A DNA stretch of 63,784 nucleotides, taken from the IMG/VR virus record IMGVR_UViG_3300045284_000147, positions 1-63,784 of that record, one strand, 5' to 3'. This document shows, piece by piece, positions 3,428 through 63,515 of this stretch (within the stretch, counting starts at the first letter, position 1; every line of letters starts with the position of its first letter). The translations under genes were made by a program, and so were the position numbers. This DNA comes from a virus. The notes under the pieces were generated by a model, which had not been told where the DNA came from, searched no databases, and saw only the letters and a list, made by a program, of their open reading frames with translations.

Positions 3428-3453
3428 GCGCGTGTGTGCATGCACACACGCGC
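3428..3453. repeat. 26-base perfect palindrome, copy 2 of the family
   Basis: Intergenic. The 18-base core GTGTGTGCATGCACACAC is extended by GCGC on each side. It lies just after CGGTACTGTAGT (3414-3425), a 12-mer that also precedes copies at 61.3 kb, and 16 bases upstream of the ATG at 3470. In RNA it would form a strong hairpin; no U tract follows, so it is not a classical terminator. Confidence 0.9.
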
Positions 3454-35174: not shown

Positions 35175-36271
35175 CAGGCCATCCCTTTGGCGAAGCCCAC
35201 CACATCAACTGTCGCACCGTCGTGGCAACGCAGCGTGATCTCGTCGCGACCTGAAGCCGTAAGAGAGTAAACTCCCGCACCACCCGGCCACTTCACGCCG
35301 GGGAAGAGCGAAGCAATCGAAGTCGCCACACCCCCATTGGTTAAGGACACCACCAAGTAACCAACAACACCACTTGGCAAATTGCTGTGAGAGAACACCG
35401 CACCAGCAGCAGTGATCGTCGCTGTAATCAGGCCATTCGCCCAATTAAGAGCCGTAGTTCCGGCTGCAACACTGCCGAGCGCGAGCTTGGCTTCTCGCTC
35501 ATAAAGTGTCCATACCGAATTGATGTTGAGGAGTGCTCTACCTCCCGCGTTGAGATTGCCGTTGACATCGATGACGAACGCATTGCCTTCGTGCAGCAGC
35601 CGGTACGACACCGCACCCATCGACCAACCGCCGACTCTCCATTGATTGTCGGTGTCGAGACCAAATCCTGATGCCCAGTAACCGACACGGTGAAACGACA
35701 TGAACGCTGCATCGCCCGCGCCACCATTGCTGCGCACTTCCAACCTATGCTGACCGCCGGTATCTGCAGCAACCGCACCGGTTGAACCGATAACGTAGCT
35801 CATCCCGGTAACTTGAAGCGAGCCGCCGCCATCGATGATGTTATCGGAATAGCGATAAAGATAACCTGCCAGACTCGGTGTCGTACCGGCCGGTCCCTGT
35901 GGCCCCGCACCACCTGCTGCACCGGCCGCACCCTGCGGACCCTGCGGACCCGTGCCCCCAACCGTACCGGTTGATCCCTGCGGTCCCTGCACACCGGGTG
36001 ATCCCTGCGCACCTGTCCCCGGTGGACCCTGCACACCGGCCGGTCCCTGTGGCCCTGTAGCAGCGCCCGGTCCCTGCGGTCCCTGTGCGCCTGTCACACC
36101 CTGCGCACCCTGCACACCCTGCGGCCCGCCCGGCGTACCCGGTACCCCCTGCGGTCCCTGCGAACCGACCGCGCTGCCACCCAGCCACGCACCTGCTGCA
36201 CTGTTCCACGTCCACAACGCGCCGCCTGCAGCGAACTGCTGGCCATCAACCGGTGAGGTAGGGAAGTCCAT
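35174..36271 (-). CDS. collagen-like tail fibre protein, 365 aa
   Basis: ATG 36271 overlaps the previous stop (TGATG). After a 30-residue head, residues about 37-130 are Gly-x-y repeats dominated by GPQ, GVQ and GAQ triplets, predicted to form a collagen-like triple helix. The following domain ([10 protein letters not shown]-like, [15 protein letters not shown]) closely matches the C-terminal part of the larger fibre at 36948, so the two are paralogues sharing a fibre domain. Likely a side-tail fibre or its subunit. Confidence 0.75.
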
Positions 36272-36948
36272 CAGGCTTCACAAAACAGAAGAGGTTGAGC
36301 ATCAGGATACGCATCAGGAAAAGTAATCATCGACACGCCACTTCTGAAATTCTGCGAACTTCCTGAAGTCCCGTGATACCACGGTTGCGGAGTAACCACT
36401 GCGCTTGTGTACACGTCAGCGCAAAGTGCAATCTGCGCAGTCGTGCCAGCGGAGCCAGTGTTATTGCGCTGACGAGCACCGTTGGGATATCCACTTGGTG
36501 GATTGATGTTTGCTCCAACGGCAACAGCCGGACGTGCTGCAATCCATAGCATGACCTGATTTGCAGCAACCGGATCAATTGGAATGCCATCAACACTAAG
36601 CGATGCCGTTCCATTCTGCGCGAGCGACTCCACATCGATGGGCAATCGCGCACCCTGAACAGCAATCATGATGCCTGCACATGGTCCTCCTCCGCTGCTT
36701 ATTGTCCACGTATAGCTTGCCGGTTCGCTTAACGCCTGCTTGTAGAAGACACGATAATAAGTACCAGCACCAATGCTGTAATCGTGCAATAACGTCCAAC
36801 CTGCAAGAGTATTGAACCCGACAGAACTCGCCACCACCGTGCCGAAGACAAGAATGTCGCCATTGACGGTATTCGCAGGCGCGGTGACTACGACGCTGGA
36901 TGAGTTCGTATTCCCGAATCCCGATGCGAAGCCGACTGCCTGTGCCAT
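36271..36948 (-). CDS. tail-region beta-rich protein, 225 aa
   Basis: ATG 36948 overlaps the collagen fibre's stop (TGATG). Typical single-domain fibre-associated protein: repeated beta strands rich in Ser, Ala and Gly ([32 protein letters not shown]) and a helix-poor C-terminus. No recognised domain. Position between two collagen-like fibres suggests a chaperone or adaptor for the fibres. Confidence 0.55.
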
Positions 36949-39533
36949 CAATAGGTCGCCATGTTGCCGAAAAGCGAACCGCCGTCGAGATTTTCAAACA
37001 CGACGATGCACCACTTGATCGCGCCCGCATTCGCATTCGGTATAACGCCATTCGGCCAGTAGATCGTCAGCCCACCCCCCGACCAAGTGATCGCATAGTT
37101 TTGCACAGACATGATGATGCGCAGAATGCTGCCGATTGGAATATTGGAAACGGTGATCGTCGCTGTACCCGCAATCGAGACTTTCTGCGACTGCCCGTTG
37201 TTGAAATCAACGGCGATTGCACCGGACGTTGCAGCGACGTTGAACATCCCCGGCGCGAACGACTTGCCGGTGAAGGTGGTACCGACAACCGAAGTAGCGT
37301 TAATCGTACCTGTGCTCATTCCGCCGGGTGTAAAGGCATGCGCGCCACCACCAGCAACGAGATTCAGCGTACCGCCCGTGATGCTGAATCCGTAGGAACC
37401 GCCATACAGGTTGATGTGCTTGGAAAGATCAGTCGGCGAAGCAGCTACAGTCGAACCAAAAAGAGCACCAGCCGACGTTACGGTGCCAGAGAAACTGGCA
37501 TTGGTCCCGTAATAGGTACTGACGTTGTAGAGCGCACGAGCATTCGCATTCAGATTGCCCGCGCCGTCTATGATGAACGAGTTGCCCTCGTGCAATATCG
37601 AATAAGACAGTCCACTCGCACTCCACCCACCGACTTTCCATTTGTTGTCAGTGTCAATCCCGAAGAGCGATGCCCATTCGCCGGGACGATGGAACGCTAT
37701 GTAAGCAGCATGTCCACTGCCACCACCACGTTGCTCCAGATAAGTGCCCGATGGACCGTTTGCAATTGTTCCGTAGGAAGGCGTAACTAGCGTAGACACG
37801 CCACCGGCTGCGCCCTGCGTACCTTGCGCACCGGCTGCACCTTGCGGCCCCGTACTACCGGCTGCACCCTGTGGCCCAGTCCCACCCGCACTCCCTGCCG
37901 CACCTTGCGGACCTTGCGAACCTGTACCACCTGCTGCTCCTTGCGCACCCGCACCTCCCTGTGGTCCTTGCGAACCGATGAACTCAACCCACTGCTTCGA
38001 GTTGCCGTCGTCGTAAAGAAGGAACGTACGGCCGTTGTCAGCATCCCACCACGCGGTCCCAACCGGTGTGGTTGATGTCGATGGTGCCGTCGCGGCGATG
38101 ATGAACAATGACGGTCCCTGCGGACCTTGTGCACCTTGCGGTCCCGTTCCACCCGAACCCTGCGGACCCTGCGGACCGGGTACACCTTGCGCGCCCGCGC
38201 CAACCGCACCCTGCACCCCCTGAGTGCCCTGCGGACCCTGCGGACCTACACTCCCAGCCCCGCCGGTTGAACCTTGCACACCGGCCACGCCTTGTGGTCC
38301 TTGCGCTCCAACCACGCCTTGTGGCCCTTGCGCACCAGTCTGACCCTGCGGACCCGCTACACCCTGCGGACCCGTCGTACCAATACCCGGCACACCCTGC
38401 GGACCAACCGCACCGGTTGATCCTTGCGGACCGGGATTACCCGCCGAACCCTGCGGACCGGGATCGCCGATATCACCCGGTTCACCCTGCGGTCCCTGAA
38501 AACCTTCACTACCCGGTAAGCCCTGCGGTCCCTGCGGACCAGCATTACCTGCTGGTCCCTGCACGCCCTGCGTACCCGCACCGGTTAATCCCTGCGGTCC
38601 CTGCGGACCTACACCACCAACCCCACCGGTTGAGCCTTGTGCGCCGACCGGACCCTGCGCACCAGCCGGACCCTGCGCTCCAACCGCACCAACAACACCC
38701 TGTGCACCCTGCACACCCTGCGGCCCGGTCGCTCCACCTGACTTAATGAGTACGGCGAGACGTGTGTTGTGCGTGAACGTACCTGTGCCAGCGGACGATA
38801 CGAACGCCACAGGCACATAGAAGAAATCCGGCCCTTCGATGCCATCTCCAGTCTTATTCCACGTCTGCGAGTTGTACGAAAAATCGGCATCCTGAATGAT
38901 GAAGTCGTCGTTGATCTCAGTGTTGCGGAAGTAGACCAACGCGTCGAAGTTATCATCGGTCAGTCGATCAAAGACGAGGTATGTCGCAAGCTGTTGATTG
39001 GCATTGTTCCATCTCATCTTCCCCGCGCCGGGATCGGCAAGGCTCGTACCTGTCGCATCAGCCCGGTAGAAAAAGACATTCGCCGATGCACCCGTGTTGC
39101 CCTGCGGTCCCTGCACACCGAGCTGACCCTGCGGACCAATCGGCCCCTGCGGGCCGACAACACCCTGCGGACCGACTATGCCGATGATGCCTTGCGGACC
39201 TTGCGGACCTTGCGGACCAGCACCGAGCGGCACCAGTTGACTGCGTGCAGTGCCTACCGTGAACCAGAGCTTGGTACCGTCGTACTCGAATGCGCCGTCA
39301 GCAGTGGCACCAAGAGACGCGGGCGCGAGGAGCGCACGCGGTACCTTCAGATCGCCGTTCTTGAATGTGAACGACGCACTAAGACCTACTAAACCTCCGC
39401 TGTTGAATAGAACAGCGTCTTGCGGACCGACAAGAACGTGCTCCTCATTCCACCCGGTGGATACGACTTTCCCTGCGGCGATTGCCGCAGGGTTGTCGGG
39501 TATGACGAGAGAGAACTTATGACTGAGACCCAT
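36948..39533 (-). CDS. large collagen-like tail fibre protein, 861 aa
   Basis: ATG 39533; the gene ends at 36948. The N-terminal 100 residues look like a virion attachment domain ([11 protein letters not shown]). Two Gly-x-y blocks follow (encoded near 39094-39232 and 37800-38745), mostly GPQ and GAQ triplets. A non-collagen domain separates them ([18 protein letters not shown]). The C-terminal region includes [13 protein letters not shown] and [15 protein letters not shown], also found in the 365-aa fibre, then a beta-rich end. Bacteriophage collagen-like fibres form trimers that bind receptors. The DNA repeats are long and GC-rich. Confidence 0.8.
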
Positions 39534-41291: not shown

Positions 41292-44200
41292 CTAATGCGT
41301 GTATTCTTCAAGAAGCGGAAGATAGCGTGGCAACGTCGCAACACCCGTCCCGCTCGCTTCAGCAACAACTCGTGCCTTCGCTCGCGACTTCAACCCCGCA
41401 ACCAGATCGATCTTGAACTGCGGATTCTTCTGACTGAACTCCATCACGTCCTTCAACGCCTCTGTCGTATCCTCGCCCTTCTCCCGTGCCCGGTAAAACC
41501 GATTCGACAGCACGGTGCTGCGCTGCTTCATTAGTCCTTGGTATTGTTGTATCGCGAAGTTCGTTTCGGACTGCTTGGCCTTCTCCGAAGGGGTAAACCC
41601 TACCGCTTGCACGAAGAAGTCCCACGGCGTCACTTCCATGGGCAGCTTGTTGCCTGTGGAGGTTGTGTAGCCCTGATCCTCGGCCATCTTTACCGCCTTG
41701 ATCGGACCGCGCAGCGCGAGCGGCGACATCTGCACCAGACCGTCCATCACCATGCCGTCGCTGATCTTCCCGGCCCCGGCAAGAATGTCCTGCCCGGCGC
41801 TGATGGCCGGACCCAACGCATCGAGCGCGCCGCTCTCCAGCCGGTCCTTGATCTTGCGCCGGTCTGTAAAGAACGACGTGCCCGGCAGCACGTCGCCTAG
41901 ACCGAGACGTGCACTGGTATCGAACCCAAGCACAGCGCGCGGTATGCCCTTGGCAATGGCCGTTCCTACCTCTACCCCGAAGGTTTCCGAAAGCCAGTGC
42001 TGGAACGCCATCTTAATGTCGGACGGATCGTCATCATCCCCAAGGATTGCATCGGCGAATGCAGCGAAGATCGGAGCAAGCGGCAGACCTAACGTACCGC
42101 CAAGTACACTGGTCGTCGCCATCATCGCGCCGAACTGCTTCTGCGCAACGCGCCGAATCTCGGGTGTCTCACCCTTGATGGAATCGAACGCAAGACGCCG
42201 CAGCATCTCCAGCGTCATGAATGAATACTTCTTGAACGACACGAGCAGCGGCGTCACCCCTCGGGCGAAACCGTGCTTGCCGAACGCGCTTGCCGTGTTG
42301 GCTTCGGAGTAGTCGTACTGCGTCTCCACAACCGACTTGATTGCGTTCTTCGTCGCCTTCTCCTGCTGCTCAGCAGTCAGCGGTGTCCTACGTTCCTCTA
42401 TCACGCGCCCACCACGCGTCACTCGCTGACGCGTGCTGCTCCTGTCCGCTTCCAGATTGTACGAAGCAAGCGCCATGGTGAGCCGGTTGATCATCTCGGA
42501 GTAATGACCGAACGCGCTCAGCACCTTCATCACCGTGGCACGCGTGTGCGTTTCACCTGCAGCGAAGCGCCCCAGCTCGTAACTCTGTGTCGTGTCGAGC
42601 TGGCCTGATGCGAGCAGCTCGCGAATCATCCCTTGCTCGCCGGGACTCAACCCCGACTGATCAAGATGCAGCGAGAGGTCGATCACACCGCGCACCCCAC
42701 CCCACACGCCGCCAGCCGCGAAGCCCGTCTTCGCCCCGGCCGAGATCGCCTGCGACAACAACCCGAACGCCTTCTTCGCCGAATGCCCCATCTCCTTCGC
42801 ACTCGCTACAAAACCGAAGCGTGCACCAAGGTAGGGTAAACCTAGATGGTAGGGTTGCGACAGATTACCGATCACGAACGCCGGGCTGGCGGCAAGGAAC
42901 CAGTGATAGCCGAACGACTTCATCGTGTCGATAACCGACGTATCCACCTGCTTCAGACCGTTAGCGAATCGCTTCGCGAACTCATTGACCACCTCCTGCA
43001 CCTGATCCTGCTGCCGTGGATCGCCAGTCTTCAGCGCGTCGGCCGCACCCTTCATGTTCTCGAACGCATTGTCGAACATCGGCATCGCGTACGCATTCGA
43101 GAGCATTGTCGCCATGCCGATTGAACGCTTGGAGAAGTTGCGCCGGAAGTCCGCGTCGTAGCCCGCGACACCGCCACCCCTGCGTCGTGCCATCGCTGCT
43201 GACGGCGAAGTATCCGACTGCAGGTTGAGCAGCTCCTTGATAAGAAAGTCGCGCACCTGCGCAGCCTCGGCGGCTGAGAACGAATTCGACACGCTGCGGA
43301 TCAGCTTCTGCGCAACCTGCGGCAAACCCCGCACCAAGTTGTACAGATCGGTATTGTCGGCAAGCGTGCCCGCACGCAACGATCCCGGCTCAATATGCTG
43401 CCCCAGTCCCGACATCACCCGATGCACCTCACTCCGCTGGGCTGGGGTGTCGAAGCGCATGAACACACGCCCCTCGTTCGGCGTACCGATCACCTTGCCG
43501 GAATCGGCAAGCGCCTGCTGCACCGCGCCCCAGTTCGCCGCTCCCGGCTTGACGGTGAACTCCGTGAAGTAATCGCCTGACCGGCCGAGATGGTGGTACG
43601 GGTTAGCCACCGAAAGTGAATAGAACTTCTTCAGCTCCGCAACCTGATCGGATAAGGCGGATACTTCCGCGCCGGAATGCGCTTCCAGCTCATCGAACGC
43701 ATCGCGCAGCCGCCGGTCGAGATTGAACGAGTACGCATCGAAGTAGTAGCGTGTGTTCGGGTTCGTGCCTTGGTGCAGCGTAGGATCAAGAATGTCCAGC
43801 TTGGCGATGATCGGCGCGACTGCGTTACGCACCCGCTCGTCCCCGCGCAGCACGGCGAGCAGCATCTGCGTGGACTGCTGGATATAATTCTTGCGGAACG
43901 CTCTCACCGAATCATCCAGCGTCTTGCGCAGCGCCGGATCGAGCCGCCGGTATTCGGAGTGAAGCGCGTTGACGTGATCACGCAACGCAGGGTCGAGTAT
44001 CGCACCACTGCGTACATTGTCATCAAAGCTCTTATTGAGATCGATCTTGAGAATGCTCTGCTCGCCAGCGAGGTGTTCCATACGCTGGTTAACCTTGGCG
44101 GCTTGCGAGCGCGACATCCGTCCCAGCGACATATCGAACGGCGTGATGATGCCGGACAGTTCCTGCTGCTTGCTCGTGCGCAACATCTGCCGCGTGGCAT

Positions 44201-47200
44201 CCGCATTACGATACGCAGCCGCACCATCCTTCAACGGTCGCAGCACCGGTTGCCGCTCGATCATCTGCTCCATATGGTAGGTCGAGGAGACCGCCAACTT
44301 GGCCTCGCGCACCCGTGGCCCCAGCATCGAGAGCGGCTTGTTATTCTTCGCCAGCTCGTCGTACTTCTTCACCAGCCCAGTGATAGTGAGATCAACCTGC
44401 GAGAATGCGCCGGTTACCGAATGATCGTAAGTGAGTGCGCTATTGGCCGAGAAACGCGAGTTGCCAAGGTACGGAATGCTCAGTCGAGTTGCATGCTCAA
44501 GAGCGGACTCAGCCTTGACAACGGACATGCCGAAGAGCCTGCGCAGCCAGCTCACGAACCGCTGTCCCCATGTCTGCCCTTCCACCACCTGCGTATCGAG
44601 CCAGTTCCTGAAGTTGTCGTTCGACAGCACCTCGGCGACGAACTCCTCCTCACTCTTGAACGCGTATTGACTCGGCGGGTTGAGCGCCTGAATCTTGCTC
44701 TTCATATCCTGCAACTCTTTGAGCGCGGCCACCGCCGCCTGCTCCTCGCTGCTGCGCGCCGACTCAGCCTTCTTCTCGGCTTCCTTGGCGAACAGAATGC
44801 GCCCAACCGTCCCGGCATGCGTCAGCTCGTGCACGACGGTATGTGGATTCTCCCCACCCTCGTAGATTGAAACCGATCCGTCACCGTGGTGGTACTGCCC
44901 GTACACACGCTCGCCGTGCTCGTTGTACGCCATCGAGTTGACGACGTTGATCTTCGACTTCAACCCCAGCCTGCGCAGCACCGTCGCCATGTGCCGAATC
45001 CAGTCGGACGGCCCGTTGGCTTCAAGCGCGTAGAGCACGCTGTCGAGCGTCCCGTTCTTCAGCTCGTTCGCGAGTGTCTCCGACACGGTATAGTTCGGCA
45101 GCTCCGCATGCAGCACGTCAATCTCGGGGTCCATGCTCATGCGCCGCTGCACTTCGGTATTGATCCTGCGTTCGTACGCGGCCTTCTGCGCATCCGTCAT
45201 TTTCGAGGTGTCGCGCCACAGCCCCTTCTTTCGCAACTCGGTCTCGTACGCGTACCTGTGCTCCGCGAGCTGCGCCTTGCGCGCCTTCGCCACCACCTCC
45301 TGCACATGAGCGTCACGTCCCAAGATCGCCTGCACGCGCCGCACGCGCTCCATCCCCTGCGCGTAGCTTTCGGGGTCGTGCTGCTTCAGCCACTCCAGTG
45401 CAGCAACTGCGTTTTCCTTGCTCTTGTCCTGCGTGACGAGCGCGTTGCCATAGGTCTTATCGCCCACGTTTTCTGCGCGCTTCATCGCGTTGGCGAAGTC
45501 GAGTGTCCACAGCAGGTTGAGCGGATTGTCGTACACCGCCACACTGGGGTCGTAGTTGAACTGCTCGAAGACGTACCGGCTTTCCGGCTTGGTGTTCTCG
45601 CGCCCGGCTTTCTCTTGAAGAAACTCCGGTACCTCACGCCCGAACACCAGCTTCTTCCACTCCTTCGTATATTTCACCCGCTGATACTGTTGCCCCTTAA
45701 CCTTGGGGGGTGGGGTGTCGTACGAGATCGTGCCGTCAGCAGCTATGTTCGGAGTGAACTCGCCCCAACCGATCGTTCGCCCAACGGAGTCAACCTTGAC
45801 GGTAGTAGCCGCTTCCCCCGTGGGAGCCGGTTTCTCCTCCACATGCAGTCCACGCACGACCGGCCCCTTGGGCTGCGACGTGGCCGCGCCTGCACCTGCC
45901 GTGCCCATCGTCGCGCTGTTCGCCGCAGGCGGTACTTCACGTGTCGTCGCAAGCGTCGTTGACGTTACCGTTGCGCTCGGTGCTTGCGTCGTGGCCGGTG
46001 TTGTGACCGGCGCTCCTGCTACCGGCGCTTCGACTTGCTGACCACTAGGCTGGGCTTGGGCAATCCCTTGCCCTTGACCGCTAGGGTTGATTGGGTCTTG
46101 GAAGAGGGACCCAAGGTTTTCTTGAGGAATTTTGGCGGCAGGGGCATTTTGCTTCTCCTTGACAACGGGTTCAACCGGGATGGTTGGGGTTCCCTTCTCC
46201 AGATGATCGACCACTGCGTTCATCGCATCGCGTGAAGCAGTACCCTCCTTCAGCGCATCGCGCGCCTTGCGCAATGCCGCGATCTGTCCCGCCCACAGCT
46301 TGTGACCTTCCGCAGTGGCGAGCGCCTGCTCGACCTTCTTGCGAACCTGACCCTTCATCGACATGCCAGCGTTCGCCGTCGCCACATTGGCGACGTTCAT
46401 CAACCCGGTCTGTGTGATCGGCGTGTTCCCGGTGATCGCGAGCTGGCGCTCCGCTTCAGCTTTCGCCGCCGGGTTGCTGACGATGGGCAGCTCCAGCGCA
46501 GCCATGTTGGGCGCGGGCTGCTTGGCCATCTTGGCGAGATCGCGCTCCTTCTGCTTCTCTGCCTGCTGCGTACTTATGGAGAGTTCCTCGGCGCGTTTGG
46601 CACGAGCTGCGGCTTCCCCACCCCCAGCCACCACCGCCGCCCGCCCCATAGCTGCTTGGCGCTCGGCCTGCGTCTCCATTCCACGCTTGGCCTTGGCTGC
46701 TTCCAGTGCCAGCTCCATAGCCGTACGCGGTGCGGCCGGGGGCGCGGCCGGGGGCGCGGCCGGGGGCGCGGCCGGGGCGGCACGATCCCACAGCGGCGAG
46801 GGACGCTCCCCGGCCGGGCGGTTCATGATCGGCGCGAGATCAAGCTCACCCTGCCCGGCAATACGCTGCGGGAACGGCAACGCCTCTACTTCGCTAACCC
46901 TGCCTTCCTCACGTGGAGCACGAACACCCGGCCCCTCCAGCCCAAACAGGGCTTTGTCTAAACCCATGAGGTCAACATCAGAAGCTGTCGGCTCCAACCT
47001 GAAGGGTTGTTCCGGCTGAACTGGAGGAACTCCAGTGCCCGGTCCGAAGTCGAGCGCCTGCTGACGAGGATCGACTGTGTGCCCTGCTGCCGTTGCTTCC
47101 GCGTGCGCCTGTGCCTGTGAACGCAGATAGTTGACATACGCGTTCTTACGCACATCCCTGCCCTGTTCAAGATCAGGCAGCGTGCCTTGCTTGGCCTGCT

Positions 47201-48461
47201 CCTTGATGAAGTCCCGATACGACATCGCCCCTTCGGGTGGATTCGCAACAAGCGCCGTGTCGTCAGCGAATTTCTGCGCTGCCTCATTGGCAGCAACCAT
47301 CTCCTCACCCTGCTGCACCTGCGGTTGCCGTTCGATATCCTGTGCACGCTGCTTCGACTGTTCCTCGAACCACTGCGCGCCGCGCATGCGATCCAGACGC
47401 CACAACGCGTATTCTTCCTTACCTACCAGCGGCTCCACTGTGGGCGCGAGCTGCTTCGCCGCAGCATTGGTCTCGCGCACTCCGGTATCCGGTGCCTCGA
47501 TAGCGGCGAGCGCCTTACGGTTCTGACTCTGCTGTCTATGCATCGCGAGACCGGCGAACGGTCCCAAGAACGCGACCATCGACATCGCCGGAATGACGGA
47601 CGACGTTGCCGCCTTCCATGGATCGGTGTCATCCACACCGGCACGCTTCTCCGCAGCCGCTTCGAGATAGCTCTGGCCCATCTCGGTGCCGGTCTCAACC
47701 GCAGAGGTTTCGGCCATCGTCTTCGCGAACTCGGGCAGGAAGTTGGGCTTGCGCACCGTAGAGAGCGCCTGCTCCATGTTCATCTTGCCACCACGCAGCA
47801 GCGCACGCCGTGCACCCGTAAGCGCACCAGTCAGCACCCTGCCGCCGACAAACTCACCAAGCCCTTCGTACGCACCAGTCTCCAGACCGAGAGCACGCGC
47901 CTCTTCCGGCGTCTTCCCGGCCTTGATCGCTTTCTCGTACGAGTCCTGCGCCTGTGATGCGAAAAACGCACCAGCACCAAGCGCACTCGATGCCGTCACT
48001 GCTGCGGCTGCAGGCACACCCCCGGCCGCGAGCAACGGCAGCGCCGCCAGCGACGTTATGCCGGGACCCACCGACTCCAACCCGCTGGCAATGCCTTGAA
48101 CCAGCTCGCCATGCGCCTCGGGATTCAAGTCAGCCGCATACTTCGCGTTCTGCATGTCCGCGAAGTCGCGGAGTCCTTGCCCCGGCAGGTTGAGCCATTG
48201 CAGTGCCTTCCCCGTTGTCTCGGGGATGCCGGATGCGAAGCCACGCACGAGACCAGTGCCGATCTCGCCAAGCGCACTGCGGGGTTTATCCTCAAGCTCG
48301 ATCTGCTTGCGGATCAGCGCCTGCTGCGCAGGCTTCAGCTTGCTGAACTTGTCTTCTTCGGGTTCCGGTGGTGCAGGTGCCTTGTATGGAACGTAACCGC
48401 CGGTCAAATAGCCCGGCGGTAGGTACTGGTCCAGTGAAGGCAGAGACAGTGGTGTTGCCAT
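41292..48461 (-). CDS. giant internal virion/polyvalent protein with metallopeptidase motif, 2389 aa
   Basis: ATG 48461 is chosen; a TTG one codon upstream is possible. The N-terminal 250 residues include a Gly/Ala-rich hydrophobic region (LAALPLLAAGGVPAAAAVTA). The middle is charged and proline-rich (PAAPPAAPPAAPPAAP), the DNA of which is repeat-like. An HELTH zinc-peptidase motif occurs at residues 1211-1215 in VVHELTHAG. The C-terminal 500 residues (LVSFKKYSFMTLEMLR, RRVAQKQFGAMMATT, PWDFFVQAVGFTPSEKAK) resemble the PLxRFG-type internal virion proteins. Such proteins are ejected with the DNA and open a path through the cell envelope. Confidence 0.75.
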   Translation of the reverse strand: MATPLSLPSLDQYLPPGYLTGGYVPYKAPAPPEPEEDKFSKLKPAQQALIRKQIELEDKPRSALGEIGTGLVRGFASGIPETTGKALQWLNLPGQGLRDFADMQNAKYAADLNPEAHGELVQGIASGLESVGPGITSLAALPLLAAGGVPAAAAVTASSALGAGAFFASQAQDSYEKAIKAGKTPEEARALGLETGAYEGLGEFVGGRVLTGALTGARRALLRGGKMNMEQALSTVRKPNFLPEFAKTMAETSAVETGTEMGQSYLEAAAEKRAGVDDTDPWKAATSSVIPAMSMVAFLGPFAGLAMHRQQSQNRKALAAIEAPDTGVRETNAAAKQLAPTVEPLVGKEEYALWRLDRMRGAQWFEEQSKQRAQDIERQPQVQQGEEMVAANEAAQKFADDTALVANPPEGAMSYRDFIKEQAKQGTLPDLEQGRDVRKNAYVNYLRSQAQAHAEATAAGHTVDPRQQALDFGPGTGVPPVQPEQPFRLEPTASDVDLMGLDKALFGLEGPGVRAPREEGRVSEVEALPFPQRIAGQGELDLAPIMNRPAGERPSPLWDRAAPAAPPAAPPAAPPAAPRTAMELALEAAKAKRGMETQAERQAAMGRAAVVAGGGEAAARAKRAEELSISTQQAEKQKERDLAKMAKQPAPNMAALELPIVSNPAAKAEAERQLAITGNTPITQTGLMNVANVATANAGMSMKGQVRKKVEQALATAEGHKLWAGQIAALRKARDALKEGTASRDAMNAVVDHLEKGTPTIPVEPVVKEKQNAPAAKIPQENLGSLFQDPINPSGQGQGIAQAQPSGQQVEAPVAGAPVTTPATTQAPSATVTSTTLATTREVPPAANSATMGTAGAGAATSQPKGPVVRGLHVEEKPAPTGEAATTVKVDSVGRTIGWGEFTPNIAADGTISYDTPPPKVKGQQYQRVKYTKEWKKLVFGREVPEFLQEKAGRENTKPESRYVFEQFNYDPSVAVYDNPLNLLWTLDFANAMKRAENVGDKTYGNALVTQDKSKENAVAALEWLKQHDPESYAQGMERVRRVQAILGRDAHVQEVVAKARKAQLAEHRYAYETELRKKGLWRDTSKMTDAQKAAYERRINTEVQRRMSMDPEIDVLHAELPNYTVSETLANELKNGTLDSVLYALEANGPSDWIRHMATVLRRLGLKSKINVVNSMAYNEHGERVYGQYHHGDGSVSIYEGGENPHTVVHELTHAGTVGRILFAKEAEKKAESARSSEEQAAVAALKELQDMKSKIQALNPPSQYAFKSEEEFVAEVLSNDNFRNWLDTQVVEGQTWGQRFVSWLRRLFGMSVVKAESALEHATRLSIPYLGNSRFSANSALTYDHSVTGAFSQVDLTITGLVKKYDELAKNNKPLSMLGPRVREAKLAVSSTYHMEQMIERQPVLRPLKDGAAAYRNADATRQMLRTSKQQELSGIITPFDMSLGRMSRSQAAKVNQRMEHLAGEQSILKIDLNKSFDDNVRSGAILDPALRDHVNALHSEYRRLDPALRKTLDDSVRAFRKNYIQQSTQMLLAVLRGDERVRNAVAPIIAKLDILDPTLHQGTNPNTRYYFDAYSFNLDRRLRDAFDELEAHSGAEVSALSDQVAELKKFYSLSVANPYHHLGRSGDYFTEFTVKPGAANWGAVQQALADSGKVIGTPNEGRVFMRFDTPAQRSEVHRVMSGLGQHIEPGSLRAGTLADNTDLYNLVRGLPQVAQKLIRSVSNSFSAAEAAQVRDFLIKELLNLQSDTSPSAAMARRRGGGVAGYDADFRRNFSKRSIGMATMLSNAYAMPMFDNAFENMKGAADALKTGDPRQQDQVQEVVNEFAKRFANGLKQVDTSVIDTMKSFGYHWFLAASPAFVIGNLSQPYHLGLPYLGARFGFVASAKEMGHSAKKAFGLLSQAISAGAKTGFAAGGVWGGVRGVIDLSLHLDQSGLSPGEQGMIRELLASGQLDTTQSYELGRFAAGETHTRATVMKVLSAFGHYSEMINRLTMALASYNLEADRSSTRQRVTRGGRVIEERRTPLTAEQQEKATKNAIKSVVETQYDYSEANTASAFGKHGFARGVTPLLVSFKKYSFMTLEMLRRLAFDSIKGETPEIRRVAQKQFGAMMATTSVLGGTLGLPLAPIFAAFADAILGDDDDPSDIKMAFQHWLSETFGVEVGTAIAKGIPRAVLGFDTSARLGLGDVLPGTSFFTDRRKIKDRLESGALDALGPAISAGQDILAGAGKISDGMVMDGLVQMSPLALRGPIKAVKMAEDQGYTTSTGNKLPMEVTPWDFFVQAVGFTPSEKAKQSETNFAIQQYQGLMKQRSTVLSNRFYRAREKGEDTTEALKDVMEFSQKNPQFKIDLVAGLKSRAKARVVAEASGTGVATLPRYLPLLEEYTH

Positions 48462-48464
48462 CAA

Positions 48465-52037: not shown

Positions 52038-53102
52038 TTACGCCGTCGCCGCAACTTCGGCACGTACGAGGTATGCGTCCTGCAGAATGACCGCTGCTTG
52101 CCACGCCTTCCAACCCACCGTGCCACGTTGCGCCAGTGGATCGCCGGGCGCGGGCCTCGGATTGACGACCATGGGAGTCAACGAATCCCGGCCCTTGAGC
52201 GGCACGATGCCGTACGCATCGCGAGCGATGTACAGGATCGGGTACACGTCGGCGAACGTGCCCGACGTGGAACGCATCAGACCCTTCGCACCACCGGCAT
52301 CCGGCCACGGTCCGAAGATCGTGCTGGTGAGGTAGCGCACGCGCTCCACCGAACCGATTTCGTTCTCGTACGGCGTCGTCGTGCCGTACTGCTTCGGATT
52401 GATGTAGCCCGCCATCTTGCGAATGTCCGTTTCGAGATCGGGATGCGCGAGACCGATAAACGCCGCTTCGACCGGCTCCGTCCGATAGTCCGGCGTGCTC
52501 TTCACGACCGACGTGATCATCTTGCCGTTCTGGCGCAGGATGCTCGTCGTGATCGACCGCTGCAGGTCAAGCGTGATGGTTGATACCACCGCGTTGCGCG
52601 TGGTCACCGCAGGCGCACCCGCGTAGAACACGTTGGTACCCGCCTTGAGCACGTTCCAGCGGATCGTCTCGATGGTCATGGCGGCTTGTTCCGCCAAGAT
52701 CGTCGTCGCCTCGGAGAGAATCGGGTCCTCGTGCGTGTCCATCACCACGTCGGTGATCGTGATGAAGTCACCGTACTGGTTGAGCGGCACGGTGTAATCG
52801 ACGTTCGCCAGCCGATTGCCGGACGGCGTGACGCCTTCGAGCAGCGGCGTCGTCGCGAGCGGAATGTAGAACGGATTCTGCTGACCGTTGACACCAGCAA
52901 CTGCGCTGGCACCAGCCGCGCCGGTTGATCCGGCAAGGAAGTAGCGGCGGAACTTCGCGGTCTTGGTGTTGTGCTGCGGGATCGCGTAGACCTGACCGAA
53001 CTTCTCCAGCACCATGTAGGGCATCGCCCGCTTCAGCAGCTCCTTGATGACATACGCGGCTGTGCGGGGGGAGATATCCCCGTAATTGACCATGTTGGCC
53101 AT
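52038..53102 (-). CDS. major capsid protein, N4-gp56-like HK97 fold, 354 aa
   Basis: ATG 53102 behind GAGGATACATC. The pattern fits N4-gp56 family capsid proteins: IPQHNTKTAKFRRYF, LLEGVTPSGNRL, YTVPLNQYGDFITITDVV, EDPILSEATTILAEQAAMT, then LRQNGKMITSVVKST and GRDSLTPMVVNP. The length is in the usual range. It builds the head lattice, and gene order scaffold, capsid, small head proteins supports this. No N-terminal scaffold fusion is seen; the scaffold candidate is the next gene upstream in transcription. Confidence 0.85.
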   Translation of the reverse strand: MANMVNYGDISPRTAAYVIKELLKRAMPYMVLEKFGQVYAIPQHNTKTAKFRRYFLAGSTGAAGASAVAGVNGQQNPFYIPLATTPLLEGVTPSGNRLANVDYTVPLNQYGDFITITDVVMDTHEDPILSEATTILAEQAAMTIETIRWNVLKAGTNVFYAGAPAVTTRNAVVSTITLDLQRSITTSILRQNGKMITSVVKSTPDYRTEPVEAAFIGLAHPDLETDIRKMAGYINPKQYGTTTPYENEIGSVERVRYLTSTIFGPWPDAGGAKGLMRSTSGTFADVYPILYIARDAYGIVPLKGRDSLTPMVVNPRPAPGDPLAQRGTVGWKAWQAAVILQDAYLVRAEVAATA

Positions 53103-54108: not shown

Positions 54109-54363
54109 TTATATGTTAGGAGCTACTTCGTTGTCAAACCTCTGAGGTTGTGGCAGAGGGCGCTCTGTTAGATATTTTAGTATCTTGCGGATCGCACGGC
54201 CCTCGCCCTGCAGGGTTGCTACCTCGTCCGGCAAGGCATCGAGCAACCGCGTCTTCACCCGGTCCAGCTCGACATCGCAAACCGCTTCCAACGCGATGCC
54301 GAACGGCTCGTAGCGCCCCGCACGCAGCGTCTCGCGCAGTGCTGCTTCCTGTTCACGCGCCAT
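54109..54363 (-). CDS. hypothetical protein, 84 aa
   Basis: ATG 54363 starts inside the last 11 bases of the portal gene. Basic and acidic helices (ALRETLRAGRYEPFGIALEA, DVELDRVKTRLLDALPDEV). It lies between portal and scaffold, a position that often holds a small head-assembly protein. No family recognised. Confidence 0.6.
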   Translation of the reverse strand: MAREQEAALRETLRAGRYEPFGIALEAVCDVELDRVKTRLLDALPDEVATLQGEGRAIRKILKYLTERPLPQPQRFDNEVAPNI

Positions 54364-56530
54364 TGGCCTTCTTCCTCTCTGGTGGCTTCGGTGGGTGCTT
54401 CAGCGTATGCACGGCAGGGATGCCTTCCGGCACGCCGCTGCCCATGCGCGCCTGCGCAACCTCGTCGGGTGCGACACCCTTCTCCAGCCCGGCGAGGATC
54501 GAGTTGTAAATCTGCGCCTCTCCCGCCGCCGTGTTCTTGTCGGCCTGCGTGAGCGCCTTGACCGCATCCGCCAAGGTCTTGCGTATCGTGGCGCGGATCA
54601 TCTCTTCGTTCATCGCCTGCTGCTGTTGCTGCGATTGCGCCTGCGCGTCCTCGCGCCGCTTCGCTTCAGAGTCGTTCACCACCACCTGCGGATTCATGTC
54701 GCGCACGTTGACGCGCTCAAGGAGAAGTTTTCTCCAATCCACGTACAACGCCTCACCCGGCGTGACTGAGCGCGCCAGATCATCCGCCGCCATGCCGCGC
54801 ACTTCCTTCGCAATCAGCGAGGTTGAGCCGCGCGAGACGACCTGAAAGTCGCCTTGTATCGACTGCTTCTGGTTGAAGTGCTTGTTGAACGCGACGAGCG
54901 AACCGATTACCGACTCGGTAAAGATGTCGAAGTTGCGCACCACGTCCTTGAACGGCAGCGCCGCCTTACCCTCGATCATCGATGCGCCCGCCGCCGTGCG
55001 AAACGGCTCGCTAGGTCCCTGCTGCATGTCGCCGCCGGTCGCCGGGTTGACGAACGTCTCGGAGTCGGCGAACTGACGGAACAGCTCGTTCACCTTCAGC
55101 AGCTCATCAATGTGGCTGTCCAGCGCCACCGGCCGCACCGCCGGGACGTTAACCGTCTGCGGTGACTCGTCATCACGGTACCAGACCTTGTATGCGTACA
55201 CACCAGTCAAATCCTGATCGGGACGCAGGAGCTGGGTGTTTACCTCCAGATTCGTCCCGCACACCACACCGGAGTTGTCCAAGATCATGCGCGCAGACGC
55301 CGCTACACCCAACGCAGAGTCGCGCATGATGAACGGGAGACCGTTACCCATCAGCCCGGCCTCGTCCTCCTCGAAAATGAAGTGATGGTAGGAACTTATG
55401 GTCTCTTTCTCGCCGACGATAGTCCACGGGTTGAGTGTCGCGCGGATCACGCAGTCATCAATGCACCAGATGATCGCGTCGAGCATATCGGCGAGCCGCG
55501 CCTCGGGCACCTCGACTCCACAACCCTTGAGGTAGTGCCCTGAAAGGGCACCATCCCACACGATGATCTCGTACTTGCGCACGTCGTTGGTCGGCACGTT
55601 GAGGTGCACGCCGAGAGTCTTGATCTCCGACTCGAACGGCTTCTCCTTGTAGTTCCCGGTCTGATGCTCCTTCAGGTAGAGCTTGATCTTGTCGCGCATG
55701 AACTCGGAGTTGTCCGCGAGCTTGCGCACCTGCTGCCGCGACATCACGATCCGCTGAAACTGTCCGTCCATCTGGTGCAGGTACTTCGCGCTCATGTCGG
55801 GGTAGTAATCCCAAATCGGCACGAACTCGAACTGCGGGATCAGGATCGGTTCGGTGACCGCCTCAACCATGCTGGTTTCTTGGTTGAGCTGCCACCGCCG
55901 TTGCTGCCGCGCTCGCGCCATGGGTCCCTTGAGCACCCCCATGCCGTACATCACACCCGACATCAGCACCCGCTTGCAGAGCGCCATGTAGTCGAGCGTC
56001 TTCGCGCCACCGATCTCGGTAAGTTGATCATCGATTTCGATCTCCAGATTCTTCGCGCGCTCACGCGCGAAATCCAGAACTGCATTGGTAATCGCCGCAT
56101 CGTCAAGACCGGGGGTTGGGTTGTTGGGATCACCCTGCAGTTTCTGCAGCACGGTGTTCAAATCTTCTTCGGAGAGGTTCGGCACGGGCGAGCACTCGAT
56201 CCCCCAGTTCTTCTCCGTGGTGGGGAAGAGCAGATTCATGAGCCGCGCCACCATCGACACGCATTTCACCCTCGTGAGTTTAGGGTAAGCGCGTGAACGA
56301 TCCGCAGGTATCCGCTGCTCCGTCTGCGGGTCGTACTTTCCTTGGTATTGACGCAGGTTCTGTGCCCAGCGCAGCTCAGCGATGCGCCGGTCGTTCTCGT
56401 ACGACTTGAAATCAGTCGAAAGTTTCTGCCCAAGGCTGCGAATCACCGCCTCGTTGAGCACAGGCGGCGGCGCGGCCACTGCTGCGGCCTGCGGATCGGC
56501 AGGGACGGGCGAAATCGGCTCAGTGGCCAT
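54353..56530 (-). CDS. portal protein, 725 aa
   Basis: ATG 56530 behind CAAGGGGTTTAC. A long portal of the P22/N4-like size class. Early segments YENDRRIAELRWAQNLRQYQGK and TRVKCVSMVARLMNLLFP fit the helical wing. The stem and crown regions follow, with RIVMSRQQVRKLADNSEF and a helical C-terminus (MNEEMIRATIRKTLADAVKALT). Forms the dodecameric ring at the head vertex through which the terminase packages DNA. Lies next to the large terminase. Confidence 0.88.
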   Translation of the reverse strand: MATEPISPVPADPQAAAVAAPPPVLNEAVIRSLGQKLSTDFKSYENDRRIAELRWAQNLRQYQGKYDPQTEQRIPADRSRAYPKLTRVKCVSMVARLMNLLFPTTEKNWGIECSPVPNLSEEDLNTVLQKLQGDPNNPTPGLDDAAITNAVLDFARERAKNLEIEIDDQLTEIGGAKTLDYMALCKRVLMSGVMYGMGVLKGPMARARQQRRWQLNQETSMVEAVTEPILIPQFEFVPIWDYYPDMSAKYLHQMDGQFQRIVMSRQQVRKLADNSEFMRDKIKLYLKEHQTGNYKEKPFESEIKTLGVHLNVPTNDVRKYEIIVWDGALSGHYLKGCGVEVPEARLADMLDAIIWCIDDCVIRATLNPWTIVGEKETISSYHHFIFEEDEAGLMGNGLPFIMRDSALGVAASARMILDNSGVVCGTNLEVNTQLLRPDQDLTGVYAYKVWYRDDESPQTVNVPAVRPVALDSHIDELLKVNELFRQFADSETFVNPATGGDMQQGPSEPFRTAAGASMIEGKAALPFKDVVRNFDIFTESVIGSLVAFNKHFNQKQSIQGDFQVVSRGSTSLIAKEVRGMAADDLARSVTPGEALYVDWRKLLLERVNVRDMNPQVVVNDSEAKRREDAQAQSQQQQQAMNEEMIRATIRKTLADAVKALTQADKNTAAGEAQIYNSILAGLEKGVAPDEVAQARMGSGVPEGIPAVHTLKHPPKPPERKKANGA

Positions 56531-56544
56531 GTAAACCCCTTGGG

Positions 56545-57972
56545 TTAACGCATTGCGTAGATGTTCGTGCTGCGTGGCGGCACAAAGCCCTGTTCCTTGC
56601 GCCGTGCTTCACGCGATCCGCCCTTCTGGAAGTACCGGCAGAGGTACGAAAAGCCGTCTCCAGTGTGCGAATGCGAGTTTTTCTCCGGTGTGTCGTGCGT
56701 TTTGCCCTTGCGGTCGATCTCGTAGCGCCAGCCGCCCTGCAAAGCACGGATTGTATGCTTGCAATGCGGCGAAATCTGCAGTGCCGCACCCGTAGAGGTT
56801 AACCTAGTGGTGAAATGCTCGATTGCTTCGAGCCTTCCACTCAATTGGTTGTTCAAATCGGGGAATCTGACCGTGAAACCGCCCTTTTTCTTGTCTCTGA
56901 GGGTGTCTACGATGGTCTTTTCGTCATTGTTGGAGCGTGCATCAGCGGCCGGGTCGGGGGCGATTATCAGCTCGAAATCGGCGTATTTGGCCCGAATCAG
57001 GGGCTTCAGACGGTCGGAGATGATCCTTTCGGCCCCCATGTTGGCCTGAACCAGCTCATCCACGACGGTTAAGCGCCCGTTGAGGTCCATTTGGCCAAAA
57101 ATGAGCGCACTTCCGGCGAGACCGGGGTCAAAGCCTGCGACCAGAGGGAGCAGCGTCGATGCCATCAACGGCATTGACGCGATGTGAAGCTGCGGGTTGA
57201 ATGTCACGACCACCGGAGTGCCGGAAAGCGAGTATCCCCACTCAACCTCGATGAATTGCTTGATCCAGTGCGTCGATTTGCCGATTGCAAGCGACGTGTA
57301 GTACGCGCGCTTGCCCGGCAGGTTGTCCACGTTCTCCGCTTCGGCGCTAAACCCGCTGGGTTGCTCGTAGAGGTGCGCATTCGCGGGCAAACCCTCGTAC
57401 AGATAGTCGTACCACCAGTCGTCCTCGTTGCCGGGGTTCGATGACCCCCACATTCCCCAGTTCGTCGCACCCCCATCGGATGAGGACGGGTAGCGGCCGC
57501 AGCGGGCGGCGAGCGCGTCAACGATTTCCTTCGGGAGCTGCACGAACTCATCGATCAGCACGAAGGTCGTGTCCAGCGAGAGCACGCGCGCCACGTCGTC
57601 GGGGGTATCGAGAGCGCGGAACAGCACCTCGCACTCCACGTCGCCGAACTTGAGCACGAACGTCATCGGCATCGGCGCGGTGGCGTGCCACTCACCCGCG
57701 ATGCCGTCCTTGAACCAGTAATTCCACGAGCTGAGAGTCGTATCCCGAAGCTGTGGTGCGGTGTTGCGCACGATCACCGCTCTTGATCGCCGGACTCCAT
57801 CCACCGGGCTGCGCACCTGCTGCGCGGCCATGTACACCAGCTTGAAGAAGATGCCGGTGGTCTTGCCCGATCCCACCGGACCGATCACCCAGTCGAAGAA
57901 GAGTTCACCCGGCGTGAAGCGCCGGATGAACTTCCTTATCGTGGGCGGCGGTGTGTAGCTGATCGACGCCAC
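56545..57972 (-). CDS. terminase large subunit, 475 aa
   Basis: GTG 57972 overlaps the previous stop codon and starts MASISYTPPPTIRKF; a longer frame back to 58053 would overlap the preceding gene. Walker A is GPVGSGKTT at residues 31-39 and Walker B is FVLIDE (137-142), with a C-terminal RNase H-like nuclease domain including GFDPGLAGSALIFG and DPAADARSNNDEKT. The subunit cuts and translocates the genome into the head through the portal. The order terminase small, unknown, terminase large, portal is preserved. Confidence 0.9.
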   Translation of the reverse strand: MASISYTPPPTIRKFIRRFTPGELFFDWVIGPVGSGKTTGIFFKLVYMAAQQVRSPVDGVRRSRAVIVRNTAPQLRDTTLSSWNYWFKDGIAGEWHATAPMPMTFVLKFGDVECEVLFRALDTPDDVARVLSLDTTFVLIDEFVQLPKEIVDALAARCGRYPSSSDGGATNWGMWGSSNPGNEDDWWYDYLYEGLPANAHLYEQPSGFSAEAENVDNLPGKRAYYTSLAIGKSTHWIKQFIEVEWGYSLSGTPVVVTFNPQLHIASMPLMASTLLPLVAGFDPGLAGSALIFGQMDLNGRLTVVDELVQANMGAERIISDRLKPLIRAKYADFELIIAPDPAADARSNNDEKTIVDTLRDKKKGGFTVRFPDLNNQLSGRLEAIEHFTTRLTSTGAALQISPHCKHTIRALQGGWRYEIDRKGKTHDTPEKNSHSHTGDGFSYLCRYFQKGGSREARRKEQGFVPPRSTNIYAMR

Positions 57973-58259
57973 TAGAAGCTCGCCGGTTTCGCAATCGAAC
58001 GGGTTAAGGCCATGAACGCCTGCTGCAGTTGCGTCCGCGCTATCGCTACCCACCGGGGGTCGGCCATGGTGGAGTCTTCGAGCGAGGAGACCATGACGCC
58101 CGCCTGTTCGGCAAGCCTCTTGATTTCGTTGATCAGCTCCACCTCGTTCGGCGAGAGCTGCCGGTAGCCGGTGATTTTGGGTTGGAGAAAATGAGTTTCG
58201 GGATTGTACGTGCGTGTTGCGTTCGGATCGTCCAGCGGCAGATCGAGCTGCTCCTTCAT
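57972..58259 (-). CDS. Acb2/Tad1-like cyclic-nucleotide sponge candidate, 95 aa
   Basis: ATG 58259 follows GGAGGTTAA that also forms a hairpin. The N-terminal 28 residues are variable. Then ITGYRQLSPNEVELINEIK (29-47) and DPRWVAIARTQLQQ joined to AFMALTRSIAKPASF (67-95) match the helical hairpin of the Acb2/Tad1 family: G-Y-R-x-L-S, two long helices and a C-terminal Q-Q-(G/A)-F-M-A-L-x-R motif. Family members form hexamers that sequester the cyclic or glycosylated nucleotides of CBASS and Thoeris immunity. The gene lies between the two terminase genes. Signal-molecule specificity cannot be told from sequence alone. Confidence 0.7.
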   Translation of the reverse strand: MKEQLDLPLDDPNATRTYNPETHFLQPKITGYRQLSPNEVELINEIKRLAEQAGVMVSSLEDSTMADPRWVAIARTQLQQAFMALTRSIAKPASF

Positions 58260-58679
58260 TTAACCTCCAAGGTTAATGTTGATTTGGAACGCATTGCCCG
58301 CGATACCACCGGTATCGCCCTTCGGCTCGTAGCCCGCCCACCGGATCGTGCTCTTGATCAAATCTGCCTTAACGGCTGACGGCGTGTGGTCGGAATGAAT
58401 CAACAACCAAGATTTTTCAAGGAGTTTTTCCGCCTGCAGCTTGGCCTTCAGCTTGAAGCTCATCCCATCCTTCTGCAACGCTTCCTTCGCTGCCGCGTAC
58501 GCCTGCACGAACAACGGGTTCTCGATGAGCACGAGGAACTCGTCCTTGGTAATTCCGTACGAGGTACAGATTTCAGGCACGGATGCAGTATGCATAGCCA
58601 ATTCAACCGGCAGCATGGGCGGGAAGCCCAGCGTGGCCGGATCGTCGGGGTTTACCGTGGTAGTAGCGAGACTGCTCAC
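58260..58679 (-). CDS. putative small terminase subunit, 139 aa
   Basis: GTG 58679 overlaps the preceding stop (GTGA); longer frames are rejected. An LPVELAMHTASVPEICTSYG segment resembles an HTH-like start, then helical LVLIENPLFVQAYAAAKEAL and AKLQAEKLLEKSW. The C-terminal third, with AVKADLIKSTIRWAGYEPKG, matches small-terminase-like proteins of related podoviruses. Its place one gene before the large terminase supports a DNA-recognition role in packaging; the fold is not proven. Confidence 0.6.
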   Translation of the reverse strand: MSSLATTTVNPDDPATLGFPPMLPVELAMHTASVPEICTSYGITKDEFLVLIENPLFVQAYAAAKEALQKDGMSFKLKAKLQAEKLLEKSWLLIHSDHTPSAVKADLIKSTIRWAGYEPKGDTGGIAGNAFQININLGG

Positions 58680-58834
58680 AGCCTGCCCATGAGCAGCATA
58701 ACGATCAGCACCACGACGACCAGACCGGCGATGCCGGACGGGCCATAACCCCACGAGGATGAGTAGCCCCATGTGGGCAGCGCGCCGATGAGGATCAGGA
58801 TGAGGACGATCAGCAGTACGGTGCCAAGACTCAT
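58676..58834 (-). CDS. small membrane protein of DUF3309 type, 52 aa
   Basis: ATG 58834 overlaps the previous stop (ATGA). Two hydrophobic segments flank a conserved loop: VLLIVLILILIGALPTWGYS, SWGYGPSGIAGL, then VVVVLIVMLLM. The GALPTWxYSxxWGYGPSG core is the signature of the bacterial DUF3309 family, whose function is not known. Its place in a cassette of tiny membrane genes makes a lysis or envelope role possible. Confidence 0.75.
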   Translation of the reverse strand: MSLGTVLLIVLILILIGALPTWGYSSSWGYGPSGIAGLVVVVLIVMLLMGRL

Positions 58835-58950
58835 CGCGACCTCGCGTCTCTGTGGTGCTTGCGTGCATAGATGCAGATGTGCTGGTCGGCCCAGCGCGAC
58901 CACCAGCTCCCGCGCCGCTGGCGCACGTTGCGGTTGTTGCGTACGGTCAT
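58831..58950 (-). CDS. 39-aa basic protein
   Basis: ATG 58950 behind AGGAGGTGTTCTTCAA, a very strong ribosome binding site, and coupled on both sides by ATGA overlaps. The product (MTVRNNRNVRQRRGSWW...) is rich in Arg, His and Trp and has no clear membrane segment. No function assigned. Confidence 0.6.
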   Translation of the reverse strand: MTVRNNRNVRQRRGSWWSRWADQHICIYARKHHRDARSR

Positions 58951-60401: not shown

Positions 60402-60421
60402 CGTGTGTGCATGCACACACG
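60402..60421. repeat. 20-base palindrome, copy 3 of the family
   Basis: CGTGTGTGCATGCACACACG, intergenic. The next inverted repeat (60423-60446) and a promoter start immediately downstream, so this copy is part of the control region of the 60535 gene. Confidence 0.9.
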
Positions 60422-61303: not shown

Positions 61304-61321
61304 GTGTGTGCATGCCCACAC
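61304..61321. repeat. imperfect palindrome, copy 4 of the family
   Basis: GTGTGTGCATGCCCACAC: one mismatch (61309 versus 61316) between arms that are otherwise those of the family. A hybrid between the T-type and G-type cores. Confidence 0.75.
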
Positions 61322-61384: not shown

Positions 61385-61406
61385 GGGTGTGTGCATGCAC
61401 ACACCC
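61385..61406. repeat. 22-base perfect palindrome, copy 5 of the family
   Basis: GGGTGTGTGC joined to its reverse complement across AT. It ends the second CGGTACTGTAGT unit. Intergenic, followed by an AT-rich stretch. Confidence 0.9.
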
Positions 61407-62753: not shown

Positions 62754-62771
62754 GTGTGTGCATGCACACAC
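62754..62771. repeat. 18-base palindrome, copy 6 of the family
   Basis: GTGTGTGCATGCACACAC, inside the leader downstream of the 62661 promoter. It would fold as an RNA hairpin early in the transcript. Confidence 0.9.
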
Positions 62772-63323: not shown

Positions 63324-63515
63324 ATGCAATTGATGCAGAAACTCTTCGCCAACGCCGCCCTGCCCACCGACTTCTACCGCATGCGTGAACGCGCAGCGGA
63401 TGCGTGGTGGCAGGCCGAGATGGCGTTCATCGCCGACCGCGCGCACTACGCCGCGTGGTTCGGCCCGCTCGACAACGACGAGGCGGGTGTGGGCATGCCC
63501 ACACTGCAGTCATGA
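63324..63515 (+). CDS. hypothetical protein, 63 aa
   Basis: ATG 63324 behind AAGAGAGGTAATACC. Helical and aromatic (TDFYRMRERAADAWWQAEMAF). The C-terminal VGMPTLQS is encoded by a copy of the palindrome. Its stop overlaps the next start (ATGA). Function unknown. Confidence 0.65.
   Translation: MQLMQKLFANAALPTDFYRMRERAADAWWQAEMAFIADRAHYAAWFGPLDNDEAGVGMPTLQS
63487..63504. repeat. 18-base palindrome, copy 7 of the family
   Basis: GTGTGGGCATGCCCACAC, read in frame as VGMPT near the end of the 63-aa gene, as the copy at 453 is read VGMPTP. Confidence 0.9.

Follow-up and report, generated by a model that had tools for sequence, protein, structure and literature searches.

An Acb2-family gene between the terminase genes of an environmental phage very probably encodes a nucleotide sponge carried as accessory cargo

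What does a small gene lodged between the two terminase genes of a phage do, and does its position imply a part in packaging? The window analyzed here is the whole of IMG/VR virus record IMGVR_UViG_3300045284_000147 (63,784 nt, 63.8 kb), whose morphogenesis block lies on the minus strand. The gene in question, an acb2-family ORF of 95 codons (57972..58259, minus strand) with an ATG start and a TAG stop, was found at exactly the coordinates given in the original prediction, and both GYRQLS and DPRW...QQAFMALTR are present in its translation. Its location between two terminase genes also proved correct, as it directly abuts both terL and the ORF in the terS position. We consider it very probable that this gene encodes an Acb2-type nucleotide sponge acting against CBASS, with the terS-terL interval carrying it as accessory cargo.

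To define the genetic context, the neighboring genes were assigned by family matches and synteny. The terminase large subunit gene (56545..57972, minus strand; phrog_2, E 7.5e-23) begins with GTG; relatives align from residue 1 of the protein so begun, and an alternative, longer ORF from 58053 would share bases with acb2 in a different frame. The terminase small subunit was assigned by position to the ORF at 58260..58868 (minus strand), which has a syntenic counterpart preceding terL in relatives. The only family that it matches, phrog_36773, has no known function, and the true TerS start probably lies inside this ORF. In order of transcription, the TerS-position ORF is followed by acb2, terL, the portal or head-tail adaptor gene (54353..56530, minus strand; phrog_332, E 2.5e-26), additional ORFs, and, still within this block, the gene for the major head protein (52038..53102, minus strand; phrog_1357, E 7.3e-54). 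The structural block also includes a very large ORF (41292-48464; 2,390 aa), a length in keeping with a virion-injected or tail protein. The acb2 junctions are tight: its ATG starts at the base right after the TAA of the TerS ORF, and its TAG stop overlaps the TerL GTG by one base (TAGTG). Because acb2 abuts terS and overlaps terL, it would most likely share a transcript with the packaging genes and be coupled to them in translation. The minus strand from ~59.75 kb to 57.5 kb showed neither promoter-like nor terminator-like sites, which fits, without proving, a single transcript over terS-acb2-terL, and no Rfam match to a structured RNA was obtained in the window.

Other features were noted elsewhere in the record. 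An 18-bp palindrome, GTGTG(T/G)GCATGC(A/C)CACAC, is present in seven copies found only at the two record ends, away from the structural block (455-472, 3432-3449, 60403-60420, 61304-61321, 61387-61404, 62754-62771, and 63487-63504), and these copies are possible operator or replication sites. Glycine-rich, collagen-like repeats (DNA repeats of the CCCTGCGGACC type) occur in minus-strand ORFs at 35900-39200, whose products are probably tail fibre or surface proteins. The early region opens (22-1236) with a gene whose product combines a DUF2201 metallopeptidase-like domain and a VWA-like domain (PF13203 and PF09967).

The assignment to the Acb2/Tad1 hairpin family was upheld by a profile search, in which PF24729 matched the 95-residue protein with 59.6 bits against a curated cut-off of 27 bits (E 3.4e-16, profile positions 1-58 of 58). 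In addition, phmmer matched it to Acb2 (p26) with an E of 3.5e-9, and the family profile A1 matched PDB Acb2 8h2j at 3e-26 and T4 Vs.4 7uq2 at 1.9e-10. Between the window and its sister phage L001, 28 nucleotide differences fall in synonymous codons over the whole gene and only four amino acid changes in residues 22-95, which indicates purifying selection on the hairpin. Given the PF24729 and phmmer matches and this purifying selection, the ORF is a real gene rather than a chance one. In alignment A3, residues G31, D67, R69, W70, M83, R87, P92, and F95 are invariant, and Y32, K47, and T76 are kept in at least 90% of the sequences. The same alignment confirms the predicted departure in QQAFM, where A81 replaces a glycine that occurs in at least 90% of the sequences. 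Loss of function through Ala81 was considered and rejected, since T4 Vs.4, a proven binder, also carries Ala at this QxG position (same column in the profile A1 alignment).

We then examined an AlphaFold (AF2) monomer model of the protein built from a 30-row alignment. The model consists of helices at 37-61 and 68-90 (hairpin pLDDT 94-97), within a hairpin domain spanning residues 31-91, preceded by an N-terminal tail (residues 1-28); pLDDT drops to about 45-56 in residues 1-30. The best eight Foldseek matches in the PDB were all Acb2 and Vs.4 chains (8h2x, E 7e-4, prob 1.0), after which came a gap to E values above 3. The anticipated two-helix hairpin is thus present in the predicted fold, and the monomer superposes on solved Acb2 at 1.7-1.9 A over 68-70 residues by VIA-align, the alignment with 8h2j_B giving 1.9 A over 70 residues at 40% identity and a Z of 8.3, although a Z of 8 is by itself weak for a helical hairpin according to the tool's own warning. 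The case consequently rests on sequence and fold jointly, and together they support a predicted protomer of two long antiparallel helices, as in solved Acb2.

Comparison with characterized members brought out the conserved and the divergent parts. The Acb2 of Pseudomonas phages PaMx33/PaP2 (p26; PDB 8h2j, 8h2x, and 8ixz) has the hairpin fold in common with the window protein, with about 40% identity over 70 residues, and both carry the K(I)xGYRxLS start and the RW...T...Q..(G/A).M...R.IA.P.SF end. It differs in having an 8-residue N terminus and a longer inter-helix region. The founding acb2 also lies in the replication region, downstream of the DNA polymerase, whereas the window gene lies between terminase genes. 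Y32 and K47, which we take, with the help of the alignment, to be the equivalents of the key ligand-site Tyr and Lys of PaMx33 Acb2, are conserved. T4 Vs.4 (the Acb2 of T4; PDB 7uq2) is more distant, with 24% identity and no N-terminal tail, but has the same fold (Z 8.4 by VIA-align). Its Y8A mutant is binding-deficient and T68M lowers affinity (PMC12657230); these residues share columns with Y32 and T76 in the profile A1 alignment, so that the Tyr and Thr that matter for binding in T4 are conserved in both proteins. As far as sequence can tell, Y32, K47, and T76 are aligned and conserved ligand-site residues. The protein therefore retains the fold and as much of the ligand site as can be seen, and we infer the hexamer and the ligands from the studied members.

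The family model leaves room for a Tad1-like sponge that blocks Thoeris, with gcADPR as its main or an additional ligand, since the Pfam hairpin model spans both Acb2 and Tad1 and the C-terminal hairpin is common to Tad1 and the window protein. The modelled tail also has a tiny low-confidence pair of 3-residue strands (17-19 and 24-26), which could be read the same way. However, Tad1 has a four-stranded N-terminal sheet ahead of its two helices (PMC12043709), and it is this sheet that forms the gcADPR site, whereas only about 30 residues, modelled at a pLDDT of about 45-56, precede the hairpin here and form no confident sheet. The PDB matches by sequence and by fold were Acb2 and Vs.4; no Tad1 chain was among the fold matches listed by Foldseek and VIA-align, which by itself excludes nothing. 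We therefore rejected the Tad1 and Thoeris reading, which is extremely unlikely, and the model predicts a protein that is Acb2-like rather than Tad1-like. Of the sequestered signals originally proposed, cyclic nucleotides stand as probable on the strength of the family, while the gcADPR and Thoeris part is unsupported because of the short region before the hairpin without a confident sheet.

The tail itself is unusual. Most relatives in alignment A3 begin with M(E/D)NQHxKI... and reach GYR after about 9 residues, compared with 30 in the window protein, which thus has about 20 extra residues. Although TerL and portal are 99.8% and 99.3% identical to those of L001, the acb2 products share only 87%, and 8 of the 12 changes (one affecting only the start codon) and all indels fall in the first 21 residues, leaving 4 of 12 for the remaining 74. 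This concentration suggests a fast-changing or loosely constrained tail and a conserved hairpin. While the rest changes fast, Q, L, L, and L are kept between the window tail (58173-58259), which carries QLDLPL, and the L001 tail (L001:3198-3290), which carries QLELDL, both fitting QLxLxL. These motifs resemble sliding-clamp binding motifs of the Hda type. The chance of QLxLxL in a shuffled tail was 0.002-0.003 for a motif chosen after looking. Since its two carriers are sister phages, the choice was post hoc, and the motif does not recur in L002, L103, and L136, which are more distant, the idea of a clamp-binding tail was demoted to a lead.

To place the gene in an evolutionary context, we collected 80 related IMG/VR loci by a TerL scan. 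Of these, 57 have a TerS-like ORF upstream of TerL and most others end close to TerL; the terS-terL gap ranges from -2 to 3,437 nt. The terS and terL genes lie within about 35 nt of each other, with no acb2 between them, in about 21 loci, and other loci hold one to several small unrelated ORFs in the interval. An Acb2-family gene was found just upstream of TerL in 6 of the 80 loci (L103, L104, L105, L119, L136, and L099, whose contig is that of L001), a lower bound because loci ending close to TerL cannot show it. L002, from a separate search, also carries one, though there acb2 is separated from TerL by two other genes. In L002, L103, L104, L105, L119, and L136, acb2 lies downstream of TerS where TerS is present, and the N-terminal tails are unlike that of the window protein in length and sequence. 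Across L100-L178, the interval contains 0 to 3.4 kb of variable cargo encoding small proteins of unknown function, including DUF3310 and DUF7178, and the L002 slot encodes a crAss001_48-like protein. A Pfam scan of ten other slot genes detected no known anti-defence family: some matched crAss001_48, DUF3310, or DUF7178, none of which has a known function, and the rest matched nothing. A scan of sequenced cellular genomes for the host gave only distant TerL relatives, with at most 38% identity.

These loci bear directly on whether the hairpin has instead become a packaging or terminase accessory factor that lost nucleotide binding. The tight junctions with terS and terL, the retention of acb2 upstream of TerL in the relatives carrying it, and the unusual tail would all suit such a factor. 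The roughly 21 relatives where terS abuts terL without it indicate, however, that packaging does not need the gene, the ligand-site residues are conserved, and the family also occurs in replication or lysis regions of other phages. We rejected this very unlikely alternative on the basis of the relatives lacking acb2. Being present in some TerL relatives and absent from those others, acb2 is optional cargo between terS and terL and not part of the packaging machine.

We also inspected 16 annotated phage records, picked by eye for variety and thus a description rather than a rate. In eight, acb2 lies among head, packaging, or tail genes (Ab9, Lsp-JY19, 1.087.A, MD04, RcWaterboi, PS6, PB119, with the order acb2-terS-terL, and Mwe-JY05), and in a ninth, 1.204.O, it is a few genes past TerL. 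The remainder carry it in replication regions (MQM1, B8b, Strzyga, and PaP2), beside the endolysin (5400), or elsewhere (two records). For 91 genes adjoining Acb2-family genes in IMG/VR, the commonest family matches included portal, head protease, and minor head families. In many unrelated phages, an Acb2-family gene thus has a portal, capsid, scaffold, or terminase gene as its neighbor, and a position among head and packaging genes is common. With about half of the inspected phages arranged in this way, late placement is not rare and a packaging role is unneeded. The suggestion that the location is exceptional or implies such a role did not hold, given these phages and the optional nature of the gene in TerL relatives.

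As an Acb2-type sponge, the protein would, by analogy with studied members, form a hexamer from its hairpins, with pockets that take up cyclic dinucleotides and cyclic trinucleotides. With these signals soaked up, neither CBASS effectors nor other systems that respond to them would be triggered; such sequestration against CBASS is very likely. The gene would have come to the terS-terL site as accessory cargo, and its late timing we infer from gene layout only. In a staphylococcal system, terS-terL RNA activates the CBASS cyclase (PMC10686824), and capsid mutations allow phage escape from CBASS (PMC10419184). Making the sponge alongside the trigger would be sensible and could be a reason for its placement. 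A fuller scheme, in which terS-terL is a cargo slot, the sponge is timed with late CBASS-triggering transcripts and proteins, and the fast-changing QLxLxL-bearing tail directs its cellular place, is unlikely.

The protein is an ordinary further member of the Acb2 family, whose mechanism is already known, and adds a divergent environmental branch to it. Related loci with and without acb2 at a single site, the terS-terL interval, would offer a test of whether the timing and place of a sponge matter against CBASS, and this interval could be a place to seek new counter-defence genes.
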